From contig DS995276.1 in NCBI GenBank assembly GCA_000156115.1, forward strand, positions 3,222,696-3,286,695: DNA of 64,000 nt. The letters are read 5' to 3'. This document shows positions 6,510 through 47,720 of the stretch, piece by piece. Position 1 is the stretch's first letter; each line of letters begins with the position of its first letter. The notes below the pieces were generated by a model. That model made no database searches. It was not told the DNA's origin and worked only from the letters and a program-made list of their open reading frames with translations. Source of the DNA: Rhodobacteraceae bacterium HTCC2083. Its GTDB lineage: Bacteria > Pseudomonadota > Alphaproteobacteria > Rhodobacterales > Rhodobacteraceae. The translations under genes were made by a program, and so were the position numbers.

Positions 6510-7244
6510 TTATTTTGGTTGGATAAAGCCCATTCCGATTGCACGGCCTACGGCTTGCGGTGTGCTAAGAGCAGAAAGTTTAGAGCGTGCAGACCTTAAG
6601 TGAACTTCGACGGTGCGCGAAGAGATTGTTAAAATGACACCAATGTCGATCTGGCTTTTGCCTGCCGCAGTCCATTGCAAAACCTCGCATTCACGCGAAG
6701 ACAATTGCGGACGTCGCAGCGCGTATCCAAGCGTATCTGATTGCATAACTGTGTCGTGCAAGGATACAGCCGCTGTTTGTAATTCGGTTATAACGTTCTT
6801 GCGAAGCTTTTCCCAAGTTCCGAGACTGCAATCGCGGGTGACACTTATTAATCCAACCTCACCATAGGGCCCATGAATTGGGACGCTAAGACCTTGATCT
6901 TTAATTTTAAAATCTCGAGCATGTTCAAAAACACGATCGAAATCTCTGTGTTCTCTTAAGCGTTGCCAATCAATGGGCGCTATAGAACGCATCGGGAGAT
7001 GTAGCGTTGGATCGATGTTCTGAAAGCGTTGCGACGTATAGTGTTCTTTCCACGCATCATCGTAAGTCGTGAAGCCAATCACTTGATCGGAAACCGTATT
7101 TACAGCGCAATAGGTCGCATAATCTAATTCCAAATTTTCGCATAGATCGTTAAGATAGGATGTAAATCCTTCCTCTGTTTTATCTACCGAATCTAGATCA
7201 AAAATTTCCACGAACGCGCCTATGTCAATGCTCGCTTCGAGCAC
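6510..7244 (-). CDS. LuxR-family quorum-sensing regulator
   Basis: The N-terminal autoinducer-binding domain has the family's Trp65, Tyr69 and Asp78-Pro79 pattern (WKEHYTSQRFQNIDP). The C-terminal helix-turn-helix is complete (LSSRECEVLQWTAAGKSQ, then SSRTVEVHL). The start is the GTG at 7244, with GAGAA about 10 nt upstream. It sits 148 bp upstream of the luxI homologue on the same strand, so the two form a cognate sensor/synthase pair. I looked for a lux box between them and did not find a convincing palindrome. In Rhodobacterales such pairs often control motility, biofilm or GTA genes; the target here is unknown. Confidence 0.92.
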   Translation of the reverse strand: MLEASIDIGAFVEIFDLDSVDKTEEGFTSYLNDLCENLELDYATYCAVNTVSDQVIGFTTYDDAWKEHYTSQRFQNIDPTLHLPMRSIAPIDWQRLREHRDFDRVFEHARDFKIKDQGLSVPIHGPYGEVGLISVTRDCSLGTWEKLRKNVITELQTAAVSLHDTVMQSDTLGYALRRPQLSSRECEVLQWTAAGKSQIDIGVILTISSRTVEVHLRSARSKLSALSTPQAVGRAIGMGFIQPK

Positions 7245-15099: not shown

Positions 15100-16359
15100 A
15101 TGCGCCGAGTAGTTGTCACAGGTCTTGGATTGGTTACGCCGCTTGCCAGCGGTGTTGAGGAAACCTGGGCTCGTATTTTAAAAGGCACCTCTGGTGCGGG
15201 GCCAATCACGCGCTTTGATGCGTCACGTGTGACCACGAAATATGCCTGCGAAGTGCCGCTTGGTGATGGCACGGACGGCACATTTAATGCCGACGACTGG
15301 ATGCTGCCGAAAGAACGGCGCAAAGTGGATGATTTCATTCTTTATGGTATTGCAGCGGCTGAGCAAGCGGTTCAGGATGCAGGTTGGACGCCCGAGGATG
15401 AAGACAACAAACTGCGCACGGGTGTGATGATCGGCTCTGGCATCGGCGGTTTGAATTCCATCGCGGAAACGGCGATTTTGATCCATGAGCGCGGTCCACG
15501 CCGCGTCTCGCCCTTCTTTATTCCTGGTGCATTGATCAACTTGATTTCTGGTCAGGTCGGCATTCGGTATGGCTTTAAAGGACCAAACCACGCGGTTGTA
15601 ACAGCTTGTTCGACGGGTGCGCATGCGATTGGGGATGCGGCGCGGCTTATTATGACCTCCGATGCGGATGTTATGATCGCAGGCGGCGCCGAAGCGTCGA
15701 TTTCCGAGATTGGCATTGCCGGTTTCAACGCCTGCAAGGCGCTCAGCACGAAATGCGAAGACGATCCCACCAAGGCGAGCCGACCCTATGACGCGGATCG
15801 CGATGGTTTTGTGATGGGCGAAGGCGCTGGTGTTGTTGTGCTCGAAGAATACGAGCACGCCAAAGCGCGCGGCGCAAAAATTTACGCTGAAGTCATTGGT
15901 TATGGCCTGTCAGGTGATGCCTATCACATCACAGCACCCAGCGAGACGGGTGAAGGCGGTGAGCGTTCTATGCGCGCGGCACTTGGCAAGGCAGGGCTTG
16001 AGCCGAAAGACATTGATTACATCAACGCGCACGGCACATCGACGATGGCGGATACCATCGAATTGGGCGCGGTTGAGCGGATGTTGGGGGAGCATGCGGG
16101 CTCTGTCACGATGTCCTCGACCAAGTCGATGACGGGTCATCTGCTTGGGGCGGCTGGCGCGATTGAAGCGATCTTCTCGATCCTCGCGATCCGCGATCAA
16201 GTGGCACCGCCAACGATTAACTTGGATAACCCTGCTGTTGAGACAGCTGTGGATCTTGCACCGAATGCGCCTGTTAAGCGTGAAATCAACGTGGCTTTGA
16301 GCAATTCGTTTGGATTTGGCGGCACGAACGCGAGCGTGTTGTTCGGAAAGGTCGACTAA
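15100..16359 (+). CDS. fabF: 3-oxoacyl-ACP synthase II
   Basis: FabF condenses malonyl-ACP with acyl-ACP and sets chain length and unsaturation balance. The Cys-His-His triad is visible: ACSTGAHAIG (nucleophile), INAHGTSTMA and TKSMTGHLLGAAGAIEA. The C-terminal SFGFGGTNASV glycine loop is complete. Length 419 is typical. Start MRRVVVTGLGLVTP at 15100. mltG begins 1 nt after the fabF stop, so these two are translationally coupled. Confidence 0.97.
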   Translation: MRRVVVTGLGLVTPLASGVEETWARILKGTSGAGPITRFDASRVTTKYACEVPLGDGTDGTFNADDWMLPKERRKVDDFILYGIAAAEQAVQDAGWTPEDEDNKLRTGVMIGSGIGGLNSIAETAILIHERGPRRVSPFFIPGALINLISGQVGIRYGFKGPNHAVVTACSTGAHAIGDAARLIMTSDADVMIAGGAEASISEIGIAGFNACKALSTKCEDDPTKASRPYDADRDGFVMGEGAGVVVLEEYEHAKARGAKIYAEVIGYGLSGDAYHITAPSETGEGGERSMRAALGKAGLEPKDIDYINAHGTSTMADTIELGAVERMLGEHAGSVTMSSTKSMTGHLLGAAGAIEAIFSILAIRDQVAPPTINLDNPAVETAVDLAPNAPVKREINVALSNSFGFGGTNASVLFGKVD

Positions 16360-16360
16360 T

Positions 16361-17515
16361 ATGTGGCGGCACATTGCGTCTAACGCGGTGACGTTTCTCA
16401 TCGTGGCGCTTTTTCTGTTGGGCGGCGCTATTCTTTGGGGGCAGGGTCAGTACAAAGACGCTGGTCCTTTGGAGCAAGCGATTTGCCTGAAAGTGGATCG
16501 TGGATCGACCATGAGTAGGGTCAGTGATGATCTTGGCGCTCAAGGAGCGGTTTCCAGTCCTGCAGTATTTCGCATCGGTGCGGATTATCAAGATAAGACC
16601 GCCAAGTTGAAGGCGGGTAGTTTTCTGGTGCCAGAGAATGCTTCTATGGAAGAGATCGTCAGCATTGTTACGCGAGGTGGGGCGAACTCGTGCGGTACGG
16701 AAGTGGTGTACCGTATTGGTGTAACGCGGGCGACCGTGCAAGTGCGTCAGCTTGATCCAAGTACCAATCGTTTTTTGGAAATGGCCAGTTTCAACCCCGT
16801 TGAGGATGCGATCCCCGAGGAATATACCCGTGTGCGCGGTGAGACTGACACGCGCTATCGGATCGCTTTGGCGGAAGGAGTGACCAGCTGGCAGGTGATT
16901 GAAGAGTTGAAATCAGTTGATTTGTTAAGTGGTGACGTTGCTGAGGTGCCAGCGGAAGGCATGCTTGCGCCGGATAGTTATGAGGTGAGCGTGGACGATA
17001 CACGCACGGAATTGGTGCAGCGGATGTTGGATGCGCAACAGAAACGCATCGCTGATGTGTGGGCCGAGCGGCGCGAAGATGTACCACTGAAAACACCTGA
17101 AGAAATGCTGACGCTAGCCTCTATCATCGAGAAAGAGACGGGGATTGCGGAGGAACGTCGACAAGTGGCCTCTGTGTTTACCAATCGTTTGAACCAAGGG
17201 ATTAGGTTACAGACCGATCCAACGGTGATTTACGGTGTCACGCGCGGTAAGGGCGTGCTTGGGCGTGGTTTGCTGCGCAGTGAGCTGCGCAAGGAGACTC
17301 CTTGGAATACCTATGTGATCGATGGTTTGCCACCGACCCCGATTGCCAATCCAGGATTGGCAAGTTTGCGGGCTGCGGTTGATCCAGACGAGACACCCTT
17401 CATCTTCTTTGTAGCCGACGGCACGGGTGGGCATGCATTTGCTGAAACGCTTGCAGAGCATAACGCAAATGTAGCCAAGTGGCGCCAGATCGAAGCAGAT
17501 CGTGCCGATAACTAA
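16361..17515 (+). CDS. mltG: Endolytic transglycosylase MltG
   Basis: MltG (YceG) is an inner-membrane enzyme that cuts nascent glycan strands and so terminates their synthesis. An N-terminal membrane helix (AVTFLIVALFLLGGAILWG) anchors a periplasmic domain. The catalytic region LTLASIIEKETGI carries the essential Glu, followed by VFTNRLNQGIRLQTDPTV and the typical TPIANPGLASLRAAVDP. The start at 16361 follows the fabF stop directly. 384 residues is normal. The fabF-mltG pairing is conserved in Rhodobacterales. Confidence 0.95.
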   Translation: MWRHIASNAVTFLIVALFLLGGAILWGQGQYKDAGPLEQAICLKVDRGSTMSRVSDDLGAQGAVSSPAVFRIGADYQDKTAKLKAGSFLVPENASMEEIVSIVTRGGANSCGTEVVYRIGVTRATVQVRQLDPSTNRFLEMASFNPVEDAIPEEYTRVRGETDTRYRIALAEGVTSWQVIEELKSVDLLSGDVAEVPAEGMLAPDSYEVSVDDTRTELVQRMLDAQQKRIADVWAERREDVPLKTPEEMLTLASIIEKETGIAEERRQVASVFTNRLNQGIRLQTDPTVIYGVTRGKGVLGRGLLRSELRKETPWNTYVIDGLPPTPIANPGLASLRAAVDPDETPFIFFVADGTGGHAFAETLAEHNANVAKWRQIEADRADN

Positions 17516-17660: not shown

Positions 17661-17689
17661 TTGACTTTGCGAACGGCCTCTCCTATAAG
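17661..17689 (+). promoter_or_regulatory. Strong sigma-70-like promoter before the GTA remnant
   Basis: TTGACT (17661-17666), an exact 17-bp spacer and TATAAG (17684-17689). Transcription would start near 17696 and meet a terminator-like hairpin 25 nt later. Confidence 0.65.
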
Positions 17690-17717
17690 TTGTGACATGC
17701 TAGAAGTAGTGGCAAAG

Positions 17718-17749
17718 CGGCCTTGAGGTGGTACCTCGGGGCCGTTTTT
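17718..17749 (+). terminator. Terminator or attenuator upstream of the GTA remnant
   Basis: A two-part stem (CGGCC/GGCCG outside, GAGGT/ACCTC inside, 2-nt internal loops, GGT loop) is followed by TTTTT. It may end the mltG transcript or attenuate the promoter at 17661. Confidence 0.65.
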
Positions 17750-17815
17750 CATTTTGCTCGTGCGGAGGAAACTCGCATGAGGAGTAACTATGTATGACAC
17801 AAACACCCCCAACGC

Positions 17816-18889
17816 GTGTCGGCTCAGGATCTAACTGAGCTACAAATGTCAGCTAAAGCGCAACTGGTGCGAGCCATCGCGGCGCTCAACCAGCTATCGT
17901 TGAGGATTGATGCAGGGACAGTGGGACCTAAATCCGAAGCGTCCAAAGTGTTTGGGGACATTCGGGACTGGTTGAAAATCGCTCATGAGATGGAGTTGCG
18001 TCTTGAAAAATTTGAACAAGAAAGAGGTGCCGTCACGGCGAATCCTTGGCCCGCGGCTGTAGCGGTTTATGATGCGCCAATTGATGCGAATTATGGGTTT
18101 AACACCTATTGTCAGGGCCGCTCTACTATTGGGGTGACCCAAACCCCGCTGAACGCGAGCGCATTCGGTGTAATTGATCGCGGCGCACCTTTGCGGGTCA
18201 AACTAGCGAGCGATCAGCTAGAGAGTATTGCCCGCGAAACGCTCCTGTCTGGGGGTAATCTTGCAGCCATCGGAGATGGCTCTGGCGCGAATTGGGAGAT
18301 CTTTCAGTTTGAGCGCGCAAAGCTTGTAGCGCCTGATACCTATGAGTTGAGTCAACGCTTACGCGGGCAATATGGAACAGATGGTTTGGTGCCCGCCGCA
18401 TGGCCTGTTGGGTCGGTCTTCGTACTGTTGAATGGCGTGCCCAACCAGATTGGTTTGCGCAGCTCCGATCGCGACGTGCAACGCCATTTCAGGATTGGAC
18501 CCGCGCACCGTGGATATGATGATCCGGCTTATGAGCACCTGGTCGAGACTTTTGAAGGTACAGGTTTGCGACCCTATCCACCTGCGCATCTTGAAGCGAA
18601 TTCCAATGGTGCCGATGTTGATTTTTCCTGGATACGGCGCACGCGCAGTGACGGGGATGATTGGGGGTGGGGCGATGTGCCCCTTGGCGAAGAAAGTGAG
18701 CAGTATCTTATCCAAATCATCGTTGGCGGTAACGTCAAACGACAAGTTTTTAGTGCAACAGCGCAATATCGTTACCTGCAAGCCGACCAGTTTTCAGACA
18801 ATGTCACAGGGGTTTACGAAGTGCGTGTTGCGCAAATCTCTGAACGGTTTGGGCCCGGGCTCTTTGCGTCGCACATTGTGGGGGGCTGA
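17816..18889 (+). CDS. GTA remnant: gp1 (TerS)-like N-terminus fused to gp15 C-terminus
   Basis: Residues about 85-357 match the C-terminal part of the gene transfer agent tail protein gp15. Landmarks are PWPAAVAVYDA, AAIGDGSGANWEIFQF, VAPDTYELSQRLRGQYGTDG, FRIGPAHRGYDDPAYEH, GLRPYPPAHLEA and WIRRTRSDGDDWGWG. Full gp15 has about 1300 residues, so some 1000 are missing. The first 80 residues are helical (AKAQLVRAIAALNQLSLRI, DIRDWLKIAHEMELRLEKF) and resemble the small GTA gene g1. The simplest reading is an internal deletion of g2-g14 that joined g1 to g15 in frame. The GTG start at 17816 has no good ribosome site. The best one (GGAG before ATG 17790) opens a 14-codon ORF in another frame, so translation is doubtful. 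The gp15 part is firm; the g1 assignment is less so. Confidence 0.8.
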   Translation: MSAQDLTELQMSAKAQLVRAIAALNQLSLRIDAGTVGPKSEASKVFGDIRDWLKIAHEMELRLEKFEQERGAVTANPWPAAVAVYDAPIDANYGFNTYCQGRSTIGVTQTPLNASAFGVIDRGAPLRVKLASDQLESIARETLLSGGNLAAIGDGSGANWEIFQFERAKLVAPDTYELSQRLRGQYGTDGLVPAAWPVGSVFVLLNGVPNQIGLRSSDRDVQRHFRIGPAHRGYDDPAYEHLVETFEGTGLRPYPPAHLEANSNGADVDFSWIRRTRSDGDDWGWGDVPLGEESEQYLIQIIVGGNVKRQVFSATAQYRYLQADQFSDNVTGVYEVRVAQISERFGPGLFASHIVGG

Positions 18890-19188
18890 TGAGTAACCAT
18901 ATAACTTTGCATGATGCATATTTGCTGGCGCGTTATGGGATCTGTTTTCAACCCAACCATAGGACCTGGAAATGCCGTGAGCTTTTGGCACGTGTCCGCG
19001 AGGCGGCTTTCTATGTTGAACTGACGGGTCACGCCCATCCCTTTTACGGGGATGGGTCTATCGCCAGTCTCGCCTTACGAACACACCTACCAGAGATGTC
19101 TATGCATCTGACCCATGAGACATTGGCTGTCTATGGCGTTGCGTTTCGTGAAATCACCGAGGTGCTGTGTCACACTAACGACACCTAG
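18889..19188 (+). CDS. Hypothetical protein downstream of GTA gp15 remnant
   Basis: The ATG overlaps the stop of the preceding frame (TGATG), which indicates translational coupling. The 99-residue protein begins MSNHITLHDAYLLARYGICF and contains FQPNHRTWKCRELLAR and LTGHAHPFYGDGSIASLAL. It has no signal peptide or membrane helix. I know no function. Its coupling to gp15 suggests that it was the last gene of the GTA operon or a passenger kept with it. The next gene, cysE, is a common right-hand neighbour of GTA clusters in this order. Confidence 0.65.
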   Translation: MSNHITLHDAYLLARYGICFQPNHRTWKCRELLARVREAAFYVELTGHAHPFYGDGSIASLALRTHLPEMSMHLTHETLAVYGVAFREITEVLCHTNDT

Positions 19189-19295
19189 CCTTTTGTGATC
19201 CATCAATCATTTCTCTGTGAGGGATCACCCATTTGCATTTGTCCTGTACACTGCATTTGTTGTAAGGATGGCGCAAAGCAAGAGGAGCTTTCGCG

Positions 19296-20108
19296 ATGGC
19301 GCAAGTCGATTCACCCCTTCGTAGTATCGATCCGGTTTGGGATCGTATCTCGCATGAAGCCGCAGACGCAGTGCAGGCTGAACCGTTGATGGGTGGGCTG
19401 TTACACGCATGTGTTCTGCACCACAATAGCCTAGAGAAGGCCTTGTCGTATCGGTTTTCGGCCAAGCTTCACTCGAACGAAATGAGCCAGATCATCTTGC
19501 GTGACATTGCAGATGAGGCCTATGCACAAGATCCCAGTATTGTTGAAGCGGCGCGCGCGGATTTGATGGCGATTTTTGAACGCGATCCGGCGTGCCATCG
19601 TTTGTTGCAGCCTTTGGTGTTCTTCAAAGGCTTTCAAGCTATTCAAGCCTTTCGTATTGCCAATTGGCTTTGGCGAACAGGTCGCAAAGATCTTTCATAT
19701 TTTGTACAAATGCGCGTGTCTGAGATTTTTGGTGTGGATATCCATCCCGCCGCGTGCATCGGTAAGGGCATCATGATTGATCACGCCCATTCCATCGTAA
19801 TTGGCGAAACCGCGGTTGTGGGTGACAATGTCTCGATGCTGCATTCTGTGACGTTAGGCGGCACAGGCAAAGAGGAGGAAGATCGCCATCCCAAAATTGG
19901 CGATGGCGTGTTGATAGGCGCCGGAGCGAAAGTGTTGGGTAACATCAAGGTTGGTCATTGCAGCCGGATTGCGGCCGGATCTGTGGTGCTCGCCGAAGTG
20001 CCTCCATGTAAAACTGTCGCAGGCGTGCCCGCGAAAATCGTTGGCGAGGCAGGGTGCGATCAGCCGTCTGTGTCGATGCACCAGATCATAAATTCAGCGC
20101 CCAAGTAA
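19296..20108 (+). CDS. cysE: Serine O-acetyltransferase
   Basis: CysE acetylates L-serine with acetyl-CoA as the first step of cysteine synthesis. The N-terminal helical domain (SFRDPVW-like RSIDPVWDRISHEAADAV) precedes a left-handed beta-helix with hexapeptide repeats (GVDIHPAACIGKGIMIDHAHSIVIG is spread over residues about 147-172, and GDGVLIGAGAKVLGNIKVG follows). The catalytic His and Asp in DHAHS and the flexible C-terminal tail are present. AAGAGGAGC lies before the ATG. 270 residues matches the family. It stands next to the GTA remnant. Confidence 0.95.
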   Translation: MAQVDSPLRSIDPVWDRISHEAADAVQAEPLMGGLLHACVLHHNSLEKALSYRFSAKLHSNEMSQIILRDIADEAYAQDPSIVEAARADLMAIFERDPACHRLLQPLVFFKGFQAIQAFRIANWLWRTGRKDLSYFVQMRVSEIFGVDIHPAACIGKGIMIDHAHSIVIGETAVVGDNVSMLHSVTLGGTGKEEEDRHPKIGDGVLIGAGAKVLGNIKVGHCSRIAAGSVVLAEVPPCKTVAGVPAKIVGEAGCDQPSVSMHQIINSAPK

Positions 20109-43111: not shown

Positions 43112-44596
43112 TTGGCGTTTTATGAGGACAAAAGGGAGCACTATGGTGGTGCGCTTGTGCTGTTTAAGCGCAACCTTTCTGTTGCTGTGCCCAACGCCAA
43201 AACGCACAGACGTGCAAATTGGTATATGCGTTTGAAGATTGGTGGACGCAAAGGCTATGTGACACGCAGCACTAAACTAACGATTTATGAAGATGCTTAT
43301 GAGTATGCGAAGAGTGAGTTGTTACGCTTACAGCAAGCAGCGAAGTTGGGGCACAGTTTAGACGAACACACGTTTGAACAGCATTGGAACAATTGGTTCG
43401 AACGAAACGTAAAGAACGGCACTTGGACGGCGAGTAGGCAGTATTGGCACGACAAATACGCTGAACGATATTTTAAGCAGTATTTTAAGAACAAAGACGG
43501 CACGAGTATGCTGCTGAATGACATTACGCCAAGTGTTGCGAGTGGATATTGGGATTGGCGTATTGGATTTTGGGACAGTGCAGAAGGTAGAGCACTGCAG
43601 AAATACAATGCAAAGCGACGTGGCGCTAAAACACGTGGCACAAACAACGCACGAAAAGCGCCAGCAACTAAAACGCTGCTGATGGAGCAAAGTGCATTAA
43701 ACCAAATCTTTTTTGATGCTTTTGAACGTGGACGCTTACAACAAGTGTTTAAGATGAAAGCGCCAGCAAAAAACAGAACGCCAACAAGACGTGCTGGGTT
43801 TGACGCTGAAGAATACGCTACGCTTACACGTTATCTGCGCAGTTATAGGGACTGTGTTGGCGTGTTTGCAGACAAGCGAGTGAATGCTTGGCATAAAGTG
43901 CAACGACAGCAGATGTATTATTTTGTGTTGTTTTTGGCGAACAGTGGACTGCGTGTAGGTGAAGCACGTGAGATGCTGTGGAGTGATGTTAAGTTTGATG
44001 TTGCTGTTGAAGGCAGCGACAGTGTGATTGCAGAAGTGCGTGTGAGTAAGGCTACGAAAAAGGGTGAAGCACGTTTTGTGCAGACACAGCCAAACGCAAA
44101 CAGTCTGCTAAAGCGTTGGCGCGAAACTTCGCAGTATAACAAACACAACGATTTGGTTTGGTTTGGGCAAGTGGATGCTGCGACACGTGAAGTTGGCAAG
44201 TTTACAGACTTAAACAGAGGCTTTCAGTTATTTCTAAAGCGTGTGCCGTATAACGAACGTGTGGATGGATTGCTGTATGATAGGGACGGAGACAAGCGCA
44301 GTTTATACAGTTTGCGGCATACTTATGCGACACTGCGTTTGGAAAAGGGTGATGTGAGCGTTTACGATTTGGCGATGAATATGGGCTGTAAAGTTGCGCA
44401 AATTGAAAACCATTATTCGCACGTGCTTACACAGCAGCGTAGACACGAAATTACAAAAACAAAACGCAAGACAGCAGCAGTTGTAGAAGAAGTTGTGGAT
44501 GCAGAAGATGGCTTTGCGCTTGAAGCACTAAAGCGTTTTAGACGTGGCGAGTTGAGTGAAGCAGCGCTGCTTGAGATAATGAAACTGCCGCAATAA
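43112..44596 (+). CDS. Tyrosine recombinase/integrase of the element
   Basis: The 494-residue protein has an N-terminal DNA-binding part (NWYMRLKIGGRKGYVTRST), a core-binding domain and a C-terminal catalytic domain. The catalytic residues visible are Arg in NSGLRVGEAREML, the RH pair in YSLRHTYATLRL and the nucleophile Tyr in ENHYSHV. The first His of HxxR is Tyr (YSLR), as in many phage integrases. The start is a TTG at 43112 with GGAG 7 nt upstream. It lies next to the left end and most likely integrates and excises the element. It converges on the second recombinase, 3 bp apart. Confidence 0.9.
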   Translation: MAFYEDKREHYGGALVLFKRNLSVAVPNAKTHRRANWYMRLKIGGRKGYVTRSTKLTIYEDAYEYAKSELLRLQQAAKLGHSLDEHTFEQHWNNWFERNVKNGTWTASRQYWHDKYAERYFKQYFKNKDGTSMLLNDITPSVASGYWDWRIGFWDSAEGRALQKYNAKRRGAKTRGTNNARKAPATKTLLMEQSALNQIFFDAFERGRLQQVFKMKAPAKNRTPTRRAGFDAEEYATLTRYLRSYRDCVGVFADKRVNAWHKVQRQQMYYFVLFLANSGLRVGEAREMLWSDVKFDVAVEGSDSVIAEVRVSKATKKGEARFVQTQPNANSLLKRWRETSQYNKHNDLVWFGQVDAATREVGKFTDLNRGFQLFLKRVPYNERVDGLLYDRDGDKRSLYSLRHTYATLRLEKGDVSVYDLAMNMGCKVAQIENHYSHVLTQQRRHEITKTKRKTAAVVEEVVDAEDGFALEALKRFRRGELSEAALLEIMKLPQ

Positions 44597-44599
44597 TTG

Positions 44600-45163
44600 T
44601 TAAACTAACTCTACAGCATTCGCCAACTGTTCTGCATTAACGTCAATGTAGCGTTGTGTTGTTGCTATGCTGCTGTGCCCAGCAAGTTCTGCAAGCACAC
44701 GAACGCCAACACCTTTGCTTGCAAGTCGTGTAATAAACGTGCGTCTTCCGCTGTGTGAAGTTGCGTGTTTGAGGCTGCACTGTTGGAAGATGTGTATGAG
44801 CAGTTGGCACATTGTGTTTGCACTAAAGAAACTGCCTTTTTGACTGCAAAACAGTGGCGCTGTGTGCTGTTTGGGTAGCGTTGGGTAATATTGGGCAAGT
44901 TGGCGTTTGAGTGTTTTGTTGACGTATACAGTGCGTGTGCGTGCGCCTTTTGTTGCTGCTGCTGACAGCACAAATGAACTATGCACATTGCCAACACTGT
45001 CATACACATCGCTAATACGCAGTGCTGCAAGTTCCTTTGCACGCAAGCCAGCGTGTAAACTAAACACAAAGATGGTTGTGTCGCGCAATGCGTGTTGACG
45101 AGTTGCGCAGTATGCAAGCACACGTTTTATCTCTGCGTCTTTTAGTGTCTTTGCTTGTCGCAT
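44600..45163 (-). CDS. Short tyrosine recombinase (catalytic domain only)
   Basis: At 187 residues this is only the catalytic half of a XerC/FimB-type recombinase. All active-site residues are present: Arg (HAGLRAKELAAL), Lys (AAATKGARTR), His-x-x-Arg (TSHSGRRTFI), His (LAGHSSIATT) and Tyr (QRYIDV). The ATG at 45163 follows GGAG. Such compact enzymes invert or resolve DNA, or assist a larger integrase. It is the second recombinase of the element and shares with the Rep-like gene a conserved upstream motif, TTATGGGRTTTGGA. Confidence 0.9.
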   Translation of the reverse strand: MRQAKTLKDAEIKRVLAYCATRQHALRDTTIFVFSLHAGLRAKELAALRISDVYDSVGNVHSSFVLSAAATKGARTRTVYVNKTLKRQLAQYYPTLPKQHTAPLFCSQKGSFFSANTMCQLLIHIFQQCSLKHATSHSGRRTFITRLASKGVGVRVLAELAGHSSIATTQRYIDVNAEQLANAVELV

Positions 45164-45460
45164 TGCTGTCTCCAAACCCCATAAGCATCAGTAATTAAGT
45201 GTAAATTCTGATATTGTGTTTGGACAACGATAAAGTGTCTGCAAATGAGTTGTTCGATTACAAGCACTTACAGCAGAACCCCATACAATACATATTGTAT
45301 GACATTCTTGTTTGTTTGCAGTGCGTTGTGTCCAAACAGTGTGTTTGAACCTACTGTTTTGTTTGAGTGTGTTTGAAACACTGTGTTGCAAGCAATAAGA
45401 AACACTACGCCGTCCCCAAGCAAACGGCGTGTGCTGTCGTATAAACTGTCTGTGCTAACT
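45164..45460. other. Gene-free, repeat-rich region of the element
   Basis: This 297-bp gap holds a 20-bp palindrome (45282-45301), direct repeats of AGTGTGTTTGAA (near 45340 and 45368), and ACGCCGT...ACGGCGT (near 45408-45431), which could end the Rep-like transcript. The density of repeats beside a Rep-like gene suggests an origin or control region. No ORF of note. Confidence 0.5.
45282..45301. repeat. Perfect 20-bp palindromic site CATACAATA-CA-TATTGTATG
   Basis: Nine-base arms are fully complementary around a 2-bp centre. The size is typical for a dimeric repressor operator or a replication/recombination site. Confidence 0.75.
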
Positions 45461-46015
45461 TCAGTCTGCATAAACAGCAGCGTTGGGAATAAATGTGTTG
45501 TCTACGTCCCAAGTGCTTATGTCGCCTACAATCTTTTGCTTGTCATAATGTGCCTCTTTAAGAACATAGAAATTTAAGCCTTTGCTGCTGCCTATAATTG
45601 TTTGTGTGTGCACGTCTTCGCTTTGCCTACAGTTTGCCCAAGTGTGCCTAAATATGCTGTCGATTGTTGCTGCTTGCCTAAAGTGCTTTGGGATATTGCC
45701 TAATATTATGTTGAAATGTGTTGTGAGTGTTTGTGCTTGCGCTGTGTTGGTGGCTTCGATGGTTGTAAGTGTGAGTGGGCGATAGAGATGTGGCTTGCGA
45801 CGCACGAGGTTTGATTGATTTGGATGCAGCGCAGCAGCAAGCACATTGAGTGTGTGCCGTAAGTCTTGTTTTGCTGCTTGGATGCGTGTGTGCAGCGTTT
45901 TGACTGACAAACGTGCTGGGCAAATGTTTGTGTGTGCTACTACATAGAATTGCGCCAAATGCGCTTGTGTGTCGAAAAGTTGTTGTATGTCATTCGCGTT
46001 GTAAGTGCGCATCAT
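45461..46015 (-). CDS. Rep-like protein with HFN and YxxK motifs, unknown function
   Basis: The 184-residue protein starts MMRTYNANDIQQLF. Its centre reads LTLTTIEAT, then TTHFNIILGNIPKHF, and further on LNFYVLKEAH. This order resembles HUH endonucleases of rolling-circle replication: motif 2 (His-hydrophobic-His, here HFN) and motif 3 (YxxK, here YVLK). The match is partial, and no zinc or helicase domain is seen. I recall related, unnamed proteins beside short recombinases in marine alphaproteobacteria. The ATG at 46015 is preceded by GGGAT. A replication or mobilisation role is inferred. Confidence 0.7.
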   Translation of the reverse strand: MMRTYNANDIQQLFDTQAHLAQFYVVAHTNICPARLSVKTLHTRIQAAKQDLRHTLNVLAAALHPNQSNLVRRKPHLYRPLTLTTIEATNTAQAQTLTTHFNIILGNIPKHFRQAATIDSIFRHTWANCRQSEDVHTQTIIGSSKGLNFYVLKEAHYDKQKIVGDISTWDVDNTFIPNAAVYAD

Positions 46016-46088
46016 CCAAATCCCATAAATACTCGTGTGCAAACACCAACACAGTGTTGCTGTGTATTTATGCGCAGAGGAGAAATTG

Positions 46089-46418
46089 ATGACGAAAACG
46101 GTTTTGGATGAGATTAAGCAAGCATTGATGGCTGCAAATGCAGTGCAAGGCGAACAAGAGTTTTGCGTTGCGTGGTTGGGCAAGAACGCAAGTTATATGC
46201 GTGTTTTGCGTTTCCAACAGTTGCAACCCAGTGCTGATGCATTGGCAGTGTGTGCAAGCAAATTGAATTACTACACACAGAGATTGGAGGGCAGCAGCGA
46301 CAGCAAGCACAAGCAATGGGCGCAACGCTTTGCAGTTCTGCATAGCAAATGCACGACGGCACTAAACGAACAAGCGCGGACAAAGTGGCAAGCAGCAGAA
46401 CGAATGGGCGCTGTGTGA
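46089..46418 (+). CDS. Small DUF6626-like protein
   Basis: Starts MTKTVLDEIKQALMAANAV after GAGGAG, 109 residues. The segment EQEFCVAWLGKNASYMRVLRF followed by PSADALAVCASKL resembles the DUF6626 pattern, a probable helix-turn-helix for small element regulators. It is divergent from the Rep-like gene with 73 bp between starts, the usual place for an element's control protein. Assignment to DUF6626 is from memory, so moderate. Confidence 0.65.
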   Translation: MTKTVLDEIKQALMAANAVQGEQEFCVAWLGKNASYMRVLRFQQLQPSADALAVCASKLNYYTQRLEGSSDSKHKQWAQRFAVLHSKCTTALNEQARTKWQAAERMGAV

Positions 46419-46593
46419 AATGGGTTTTAGACGTAGAAAAAACGTGCTGCGGTTTTTGGTAGGGAACTACTTACAGTTTTGTGCTGGTGATTTTGCACAT
46501 ATGGGGGTGGCACAGTGAGTGCTTTGGCTGACGTGGTGAGCCTCCCCCTTTGAAGTGGTCCGCCCCTATAGTTAGGAAAGCGGAGGACCTGAG

Positions 46594-46872
46594 ATGGCCA
46601 TTAAGAGACCAAAGCCCGAAGAGATTGTCGTGAAGTTACGGCAGGTTGAAGTTCTGATGGGGCAAGGCATGCCTCGGATTGACGCAATCAGACAGATCAG
46701 TGTGACTGAACAAACCTATTATCGCTGGAAGAAGAAGTATGGCGGAATGGGCACGGAACAACTCAAGGAATTAAAGCGCCTTCAGAAAGAGAACGAACGT
46801 CTTCGGCGTGCAGTTTCCGACCTGACGCTGGATAAGTTGATCTTAAGGGAGGCCGCATCGGGAAACTTCTAA
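46594..46872 (+). CDS. IS3-family transposase OrfA
   Basis: The 92-residue OrfA has the helix-turn-helix of this family ([35 protein letters not shown]) and a leucine-zipper-like helix ([18 protein letters not shown]). It ends AASGNF at 46872. A -1 frameshift in the overlap joins it to OrfB to make the active OrfAB transposase. Confidence 0.95.
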
Positions 46873-46979
46873 GCCCCTCGCGCAGGCGTGCCTGCATCAA
46901 TCACGTTCGTAGTCAGTTCAAAGTTTCTGAGCGTCGTGTCTGCCGTGTATTAGGCCAACACCGATCCACGCAGCGGCGG

Positions 46980-47720
46980 TTGCCACAAGGGCGTGCTGAC
47001 GAAGAACGCTTGGTTGCGGACATGATCGAGTTCACACGCCAGTACGGCCGATATGGCTATCGTCGGGTTGCAGCCCTGCTGAGAGACGCGGGTTGGCAGG
47101 TTAATGACAAGCGTGTCGAACGCCTATGGCGACGTGAGGGGCTTAAAGTGCCAATGAAGCAACCAAAGAAAGGACGGCTCTGGCTGAATGACGGATCATG
47201 TGTCCGTTTACGTCCCGAGTATCGTAATCACGTCTGGTCGTATGACTTCGTGCATCACCGGACAGATGATGGTAGGGCGTTTCGGACGCTTAACATCTTG
47301 GACGAGCATAGCCGAGAATGTCTGGCGATCCGAGTGAAACGAAAGCTGAACTCGACGGAGGTCATCGACGCTCTTACGGACCTGTTCATCTTGCGAGGTT
47401 TCCCTGCCTACATCCGTTCAGACAACGGCCCTGAGTTCATTGCTGAGGCCGTCAGAGATTGGATCAAAGCCGTGGGAGCCAAGACGGCTTATATAGAACC
47501 TGGATCACCCTGGGAGAACGGATACTGCGAAAGCTTCAACGGGAGAATGCGAGACGAGTTGCTGAACGGTGAAATCTTCTACTCGCTCCGAGAAGCCCAA
47601 ATCATCATTGAAAGATGGAGGAACCATTACAACACCAAGCGACCACACAGTGCATTGGGCTACCGCCCGCCCGCGCCAGAGGCCATCATCCCGATGGACC
47701 AAAGGCCAATCATGCACTAA
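46980..47720 (+). CDS. IS3-family transposase OrfB (DDE integrase domain)
   Basis: The DDE triad is visible: Asp in [14 protein letters not shown], Asp in [10 protein letters not shown] and Glu in [15 protein letters not shown]. The frame is open upstream to about 46858 and reads [12 protein letters not shown], overlapping the end of OrfA in the -1 frame. OrfB is therefore made as a fusion by programmed frameshifting. No lesion is seen, so the IS may still be active. Confidence 0.95.

Follow-up and report, generated by a model that had tools for sequence, protein, structure and literature searches.

A deletion scar joining the first and last genes of a gene transfer agent cluster in Rhodobacteraceae bacterium HTCC2083, and repeated cluster loss among its relatives

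The DNA stretch analysed here (the window) comprises 64,000 nucleotides of the genome of Rhodobacteraceae bacterium HTCC2083. An open reading frame (ORF) at 17816-18889 starts with GTG and encodes 357 residues, with no stop within the 357 codons. An earlier note had proposed that this ORF fuses a gp1-like start to the end of gp15, two proteins of the gene transfer agent (GTA) head-tail cluster. Similarity searches bear out the proposal: the product begins as gp1 (small terminase, TerS) and finishes as the C-terminal end of gp15 (megatron). With the whole ORF as query, residues 103-203 matched Pfam PF23666 (Rcc01698_C, E 6.7e-33). Residues 67-353 matched positions 1010-1297 of the NCBIfam model NF048004 (GTA_megatron, E 2.4e-86) with 290.6 bits, compared with a whole-protein cut-off of 800 bits, and the ORF does not rank as a full-length gp15. 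In the PDB, residues 71-356 matched chain 6tba_8A of RcGTA (E 1.3e-83), and the gp15 half, residues 72-357, also matched phrog_4271 (E 5.2e-59) and PDB 8gtc. The megatron C-terminal domain, a trait of RcGTA-like elements, is thus present. Its identity is 72% to the gp15 C-terminus of Planktotalea arctica and 70-71% to that of P. frisia.

Assignment of the gp1 half came from relatives. Residues 1-85 used as a separate query had no match in PHROGs or NCBIfam, Pfam having been queried with the whole ORF only. Residues 1-70, in turn, match the gp1 ORF that opens the GTA locus in four of five congeners, with identities of 90% (HE327_NSB060, hereafter HE327), 82% (P. frisia), 79% (Ww402) and 71% (P. 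arctica). The segment found no match in the fifth congener, G004, where the left part of the locus is replaced. Both halves therefore have the identity that the earlier note gave them, with amended lengths (70 residues of gp1 instead of 80-85, and 286 of gp15 instead of 270), and the possibility that the first 85 residues belong to another family can be set aside. The features of the locus are listed in Table 1.

Table 1. Features of the GTA locus and of the putative activator gene in the window
Feature	Coordinates	Strand	Evidence and remarks
mltG (YceG), flanking the GTA locus on the left	16310..17515	+	PF02618, E 1.3e-76
Promoter-like TTGACT-17 nt-TATAAG 5' of gp1, retained from the intact cluster	17661..17689	+	Reading by eye of five aligned leaders, window included
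Terminator-like hairpin and T-run, between promoter and gp1	17714..17748	+	Scan (16 pairs); conservation
Putative 6-codon leader ORF (ATG..TGA), stop overlapping the native gp1 ATG	17777..17797	+	Read from the sequence
Native gp1 start frame, 14 codons then TGA	17794..17838	+	Broken by a 1-nt insertion in a C run
gp1 (TerS) part, ORF residues 1-70, two N-terminal helices	17816..18025	+	Congener matches; predicted helices 3-33 and 39-73
Deletion junction g1::g15, in frame	18026..18028	+	Position known to within a few bases
gp15 (megatron) C-terminal end and stop, equivalent to residues ~1051-1336 of P. arctica gp15	18029..18889	+	PF23666, phrog_4271, NF048004, PDB
DUF7742 gene, open, downstream neighbour of g15	18889..19188	+	PF24891, E 7.8e-9
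cysE, right neighbour	19296..20108	+	PF06426, E 6.9e-39; same order in congeners
gafA homologue (DUF6456), GTA activator, open, 409 aa	59411..60640	+	DUF6456, E 5.9e-60

The genome appears to be of Planktotalea type, a genus name that we draw from the named relatives whose sequences match the ORF: P. arctica IMCC9565, P. frisia SH6-1 and the metagenome-assembled genomes Ww402 and HE327_NSB060. The gene mltG occupies the same place in all five congeners, with 82-95% identity, and the DUF7742 gene likewise keeps its position in three of them (P. arctica, P. frisia and G004). Where congeners carry a cluster, it lies between mltG on the left and cysE on the right, the neighbours anticipated by the earlier note. 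Compared with these clusters, the window locus lacks 13,035 bp (P. arctica) or 12,990 bp (P. frisia), bounded by the same neighbours (mltG on one side, DUF7742 and cysE on the other). The deletion proposed earlier is thus upheld, at a size of about 13.0 kb rather than 13-14 kb. As the note had described, g2-g14 are gone, together with a large part of gp15 (about 1050 residues; the note gave about 1000).

The lost genes were sought in the rest of the genome (4.02 Mb, five contigs, rated 100% complete). The gp15 family model matched the scar ORF only. Portal (g3) and capsid (g5) queries had no match, and among the six genomes of the genus only P. arctica and P. frisia matched them; a query made of TerL and gp15 pieces also had no match in the window genome. 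A 14.4-kb query of cluster DNA recovered the two scar halves and four short matches to a dispersed repeat (40 of 84 candidates scored). Hence, no other copy of the lost genes was found by protein searches for gp15, portal, capsid and part of TerL, nor by DNA similarity alone for g4 and g6-g14, in agreement with the loss posited in the note. The head-tail cluster with capsid and portal that typifies RcGTA-like elements is absent from the genome, and the locus qualifies as a GTA deletion scar: remnants of two cluster genes are joined at the ancestral locus, and the cluster is present in congeners. That the scar is an assembly artefact is very improbable, the least probable of the explanations considered here. 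The species is represented by a single assembly; against an artefact, the locus lies within a 3.95-Mb contig of a genome rated complete, the flanking gene order is that of congeners, and neither capsid nor portal matches occur anywhere.

Two side observations concern repeated and mobile DNA. A short segment in the g3-g4 interval of P. arctica (L043, ~6827-6901) has scattered matches of ~28-75 bp and 79-100% identity in all six genus genomes searched, and is a dispersed repeat. In the window, 43112-47720 is a likely mobile region, partly of low GC content, with two phage-type integrases (PF00589) and a transposase with an rve domain.

The leader of the cluster is retained in the window. The promoter-like pair was missing from the output of a consensus promoter scan. 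The terminator scan found two sites compared with 1.9 expected by chance, so that the case for the hairpin rests on conservation; the consensus of the five leaders has 22 pairs, of which only one has changed on both sides and several are disrupted in one of the rows. Both the ATG and the TGA of the leader ORF hold identical positions in the five leaders. In Caulobacter, read-through of a terminator in the GTA operon by a GafA-related antiterminator is described in the available part of PMC11150451; for the hairpin in the window, this analogy may serve as a lead only. The native gp1 ATG at 17794 is out of frame (+1) with the ORF at 17816-18889: owing to an extra base in a C run, translation from this ATG would meet a stop after 14 codons, and the long frame is accessible only from the internal GTG, which has no clear ribosome site directly 5' of it. 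The extra base sits in a run of five C, and a sequencing error is possible. The intact frame claimed by the earlier note therefore exists across the junction, from the internal GTG, and is lost from the native gp1 start.

A homologue of the GTA activator gene gafA is also found in the window, and a GafA-type activator, another RcGTA-like trait, is thus present in the genome; the tie between DUF6456 and GafA is taken from the text available of PMC9638019. In the other losers of the cluster, this gene is damaged: only its last 24 residues are matched in HE327 (L075:5513-5584), it is split over three frames in G004 (L077:223-1349), and one stop interrupts it in Ww402 (L078:2820-4028). As far as these sequences tell, the activator is decaying alongside the cluster.

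Four of the six genomes of the genus lack most of the GTA cluster. In P. arctica, g1 and 14 further ORFs lie open and in cluster order between mltG and DUF7742-cysE. The order is the same in P. frisia, with one frameshift in g14; gene numbers were assigned by order in both species, leaving out the small g3.5 and g10.1. In the type strain of P. frisia, the frameshift breaks g14 in two at L040:7396-7895 (reverse strand); the cluster of this strain may be inactive, or the split may be a draft error. The P. frisia genome paper, in the part available to us, describes the cluster as complete but without g1 (PMC5896138); a g1 ORF is, contrary to that description, present (L038:9974-10324). In HE327, a complete g1 is followed by the 5' part of g2, from which the sequence jumps into DUF7742 at residue 43; comparison of its locus revealed neither gp15 nor the start of DUF7742. 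Ww402 has an in-frame fusion of some 190 TerL residues to gp15, on a 3.9-kb contig with coverage 1.6. In G004, mltG is followed by ~650 bp of unrelated sequence and then by a gp15 that starts near residue 974 and is itself cut by a contig break. The unrelated sequence of G004 (L047:646-1318) resembles none of the other loci; it stands where the GTA locus should begin, and contains a small ORF on the opposite strand.

The genus tree, (arctica,(G004,((window,HE327),(frisia,Ww402)))), pairs the window genome with HE327 (support 100/100) and P. frisia with Ww402 (support 90/91, not starred; Ww402 was placed by mltG only). Given this topology, four separate losses are required, provided that a lost cluster was never regained. 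The window and HE327, although sisters, have different breakpoints and mutually exclusive pieces, and neither scar can derive from the other because each retains what the other lost. Nor do sister strains share the fused ORF, as an explanation without GTA loss would have it: HE327 carries a different scar. That most of the genus lacks most of the cluster might suggest a single ancestral deletion, widened differently in each lineage. We consider this highly unlikely, in view of the exclusive pieces of the window and HE327, the TerL residues that Ww402 retains and the window lost, and the position of P. frisia, whose nearly complete cluster nests among the losers. From these comparisons, the losses look like independent deletions. 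The rarity that the earlier note attached to such a snapshot does not survive these counts, nor the finding of gp15 remnants elsewhere in the family.

The age and fate of the fused ORF were approached through substitution rates. The dS between the window and HE327 is 0.21-0.30 for mltG, cysE and pdhC, with fabF an outlier (0.905). Under neutrality, and counting substitutions only, a frame of this length would remain open with a probability of 0.48 at 0.02 substitutions per site and of 0.03 at 0.1. The deletion is therefore probably far more recent than the divergence from HE327, unless the frame has been otherwise maintained. In the gp15 remnant, dN is not raised (0.199 for window-arctica, 0.223 for window-frisia and 0.222 for frisia-arctica). 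For the gp1 piece, dN/dS is 0.38 between the window and HE327, on 14 changes in a short piece, and 0.19 between P. frisia and P. arctica.

Our interpretation, which we hold with high confidence, is that a single deletion of ~13.0 kb produced the g1::g15 scar, that the in-frame joint arose by chance, and that the leftover ORF is a young pseudogene. The deletion would have been illegitimate, with microhomology of a few bases at most: the base match at the junction is weak, and the bases that preceded the deletion lack a reference, HE327 having no g15. It would have taken out the 3' part of g1, the whole of g2-g14 and the bulk of g15 after the split from HE327, whose cluster would have been lost through another deletion. 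Judging from the absence of capsid, portal, TerL and second gp15 matches, the cell presumably no longer makes GTA particles. The ORF, which kept its leader and lost its native start, would most likely be an untranslated or barely translated pseudogene in which stops have not yet accumulated. Spread of the loss may have followed a cheater scenario, in which non-producers avoid lysis yet still receive DNA. The main point against this interpretation is that the ORF is still open, so that the deletion must be recent or something must keep the frame.

Could the fusion have become a working protein? One may imagine that the two TerS helices oligomerise the C-terminal domain of gp15, yielding a decoy or a receptor-binding protein under GafA control. 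Such a proposal accommodates the in-frame junction, the absence of stops, the unraised dN of gp15 and the retention of leader and gafA, as well as a structure model in which both helices (3-33 and 39-73) are kept. It fits poorly with a native start out of frame, a GTG lacking a clear ribosome site just before it, a sister genome without any gp15, and a gp15 half modelled mostly at low confidence (mean pLDDT 61 overall). We regard it as unlikely; at the level of sequence, our analysis gave no sign that the fusion still functions. The frame itself can be judged against noncanonical remnants of the family that have a cluster gene directly upstream: four of nine share its frame and five do not, compared with three expected by chance, and one of the four (G101) has a stop between the two genes. 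Hence, the in-frame joint in the window needs no special cause.

Remnants of gp15 were surveyed in 395 genomes of the family with completeness of at least 95%: 333 had a match above the cut-off, 32 below it only, and 30 none. In 13 of 16 weak cases inspected, the window included, only the C-terminal end was matched; in the others, gp15 was split in two frames (G082) or represented by inner pieces (G148, at a contig end, and G176). Within the flanks fetched, cysE was found at 13 of the 16 loci and another cluster gene at 12.

Three genomes, G082, G148 and Ww402, share one TerL::gp15 joint. A 200-residue query spanning it (L033:1661-2260) gave almost full-length matches (1-2 to 197-200) in at least 16 of the 395 genomes, belonging to 16 genera, while intact genomes among the matches listed covered only about residues 1-111. 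With G408 and Ww402 (the genome of the query itself), at least 18 genomes carry the chimera (L111-L127 and L033:1409-3856). It consists of the first ~190 residues of TerL fused in frame, codon-exactly, to gp15 from about residue 675, mostly with ~830 residues in all. In 18 of 18, the joint reads W-x-D-E from TerL and then x-G-C from gp15, and the Walker A motif and WxDE end are kept: the TerL part retains its ATP-binding motifs and stops at the Walker B 'DE', and gp15 is entered inside its TIM-barrel domain. All four chimeras tested with Pfam contain Terminase_6N, Phage-tail_3 and the final third of GTA_TIM. Rcc01698_C was seen in three of them; for the fourth, G082, whose gene is broken, the query was its first frame. 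The chimera lies between mltG and cysE in 14 of 18 genomes, and in the other four one of the two is seen in the stretch fetched. Fifteen are unbroken in the sequence at hand, that of G148 ending at the contig end; a frameshift (G082), an early stop (G295) and an early end on a contig with coverage 1.6 (Ww402) break the other three. No close capsid g5 was detected in the 17 fused genomes searched or in Ww402; one was present in four of four intact congeners, and four of the 17 have relatives at 30-37% identity. The window genome has no match to the query across the WxDE|xGC joint (g2 ~190, g15 ~675).

In a tree of the two ends, with 18 fused and 14 intact rows, 10 state changes are needed and all 10 are forced by well-supported branches. 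The fused label is no more clustered than after shuffling (216 of 500 shuffles as low), and the starred pairs of fused and intact sisters are Ww402/frisia, G082/G386, G070/G378, G152/G420, G149/G419, G095/G346 and G227/G153. Several explanations for a recurrent joint were tried and rejected. A hotspot of DNA homology is not seen, since the best direct repeats lie elsewhere in the 14 intact clusters: the joint diagonal fell below the reporting score in 10, and ranked 245th, 620th, 694th and 1435th in the others, two of these off the joint. A conserved DNA site left no clear signal (by codon conservation, rank 12 among 171 g2 windows and rank 54 among 264 g15 windows). A single imported allele is disfavoured because, over all 32 rows, fused genes are no more similar to one another next to the joint than to intact genes: in the four windows touching it, 197, 270, 440 and 467 of 500 label shuffles were as high, and trees of near-joint codons still require 9-14 changes. 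In six fused-intact pairs, the congener was mostly the nearest sequence; the result is mixed, since another fused genome is nearer to G152 in the three windows beside the joint, and to G149 in its left windows. A return of the cluster to lineages with the fusion finds no support in the trees of inner genes and ends, which are broadly congruent in the 14 intact genomes (distance correlation 0.87). As for carriage by mobile elements, none of 144 phage and 14 plasmid records covers 80% of the query, none of the 80 viral-contig loci kept (of 100 relatives) spans the joint, and eight viral contigs with the junction DNA pattern lack GTA similarity. PADLOC gave no match for the three chimeras tested.

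The exact recurrence of the chimera is a computed result; selection behind it is our inference. Both left and right of the joint, the relationships of fused genes are with their intact congeners, and DNA homology at the joint is poor; for this reason a convergently selected protein comes into consideration. A tentative reading, which we place somewhat short of probable, is that roseobacters repeatedly lose their GTA through the same codon-exact fusion, which would create a new protein (for instance, a decoy or immunity factor) as the endpoint of GTA domestication; the window would then represent another route of loss. For three fused pairs, dN/dS is 0.12-0.33, a range also to be expected of constrained genes that had fused recently and independently; the AlphaFold model of one chimera has a mean pLDDT of 37. 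Chance deletions hardly account for a recurrence of this kind, which would imply either a new gene under strong selection or a novel mechanism of deletion.

GTAs persist in spite of being lethal to their makers, and are lost in some lineages. Modelling indicates that self-transfer costs GTA genes more than it gains them, as stated in the available part of PMC6209664. Neither a g1::g15 nor a TerL::gp15 fusion is named in the titles or abstract openings of the open-access papers that our literature searches listed. GTA loss is already known, and the g1::g15 scar itself is a modest find. With the RcGTA-type head-tail cluster (g1-g15), the window shares the gp15 C-terminus, the gp1 N-terminus, the place between mltG and cysE and the GafA homologue; it differs in the deletion of g2-g14 and most of g15 and in the shifted start of g1. 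In RcGTA gp1, according to the text available of PMC6854486, two N-terminal helices are predicted to form a coiled coil and a C-terminal third helix is required for TerL binding. The two N-terminal helices are kept in the window ORF, and the third, to judge by its position, would fall in the deleted part. Pseudogenisation and loss of GTA clusters in several lineages of Alphaproteobacteria have been explained by cheaters and deletion bias (PMC10883770). Loss by lineage is common to those clusters and to ours; whereas that study, in the part available to us, set incomplete clusters aside, here the breakpoints are mapped and four losses are located in one genus. With one open cluster, one nearly complete and four located losses, the six Planktotalea genomes permit direct comparison of losers and keepers.
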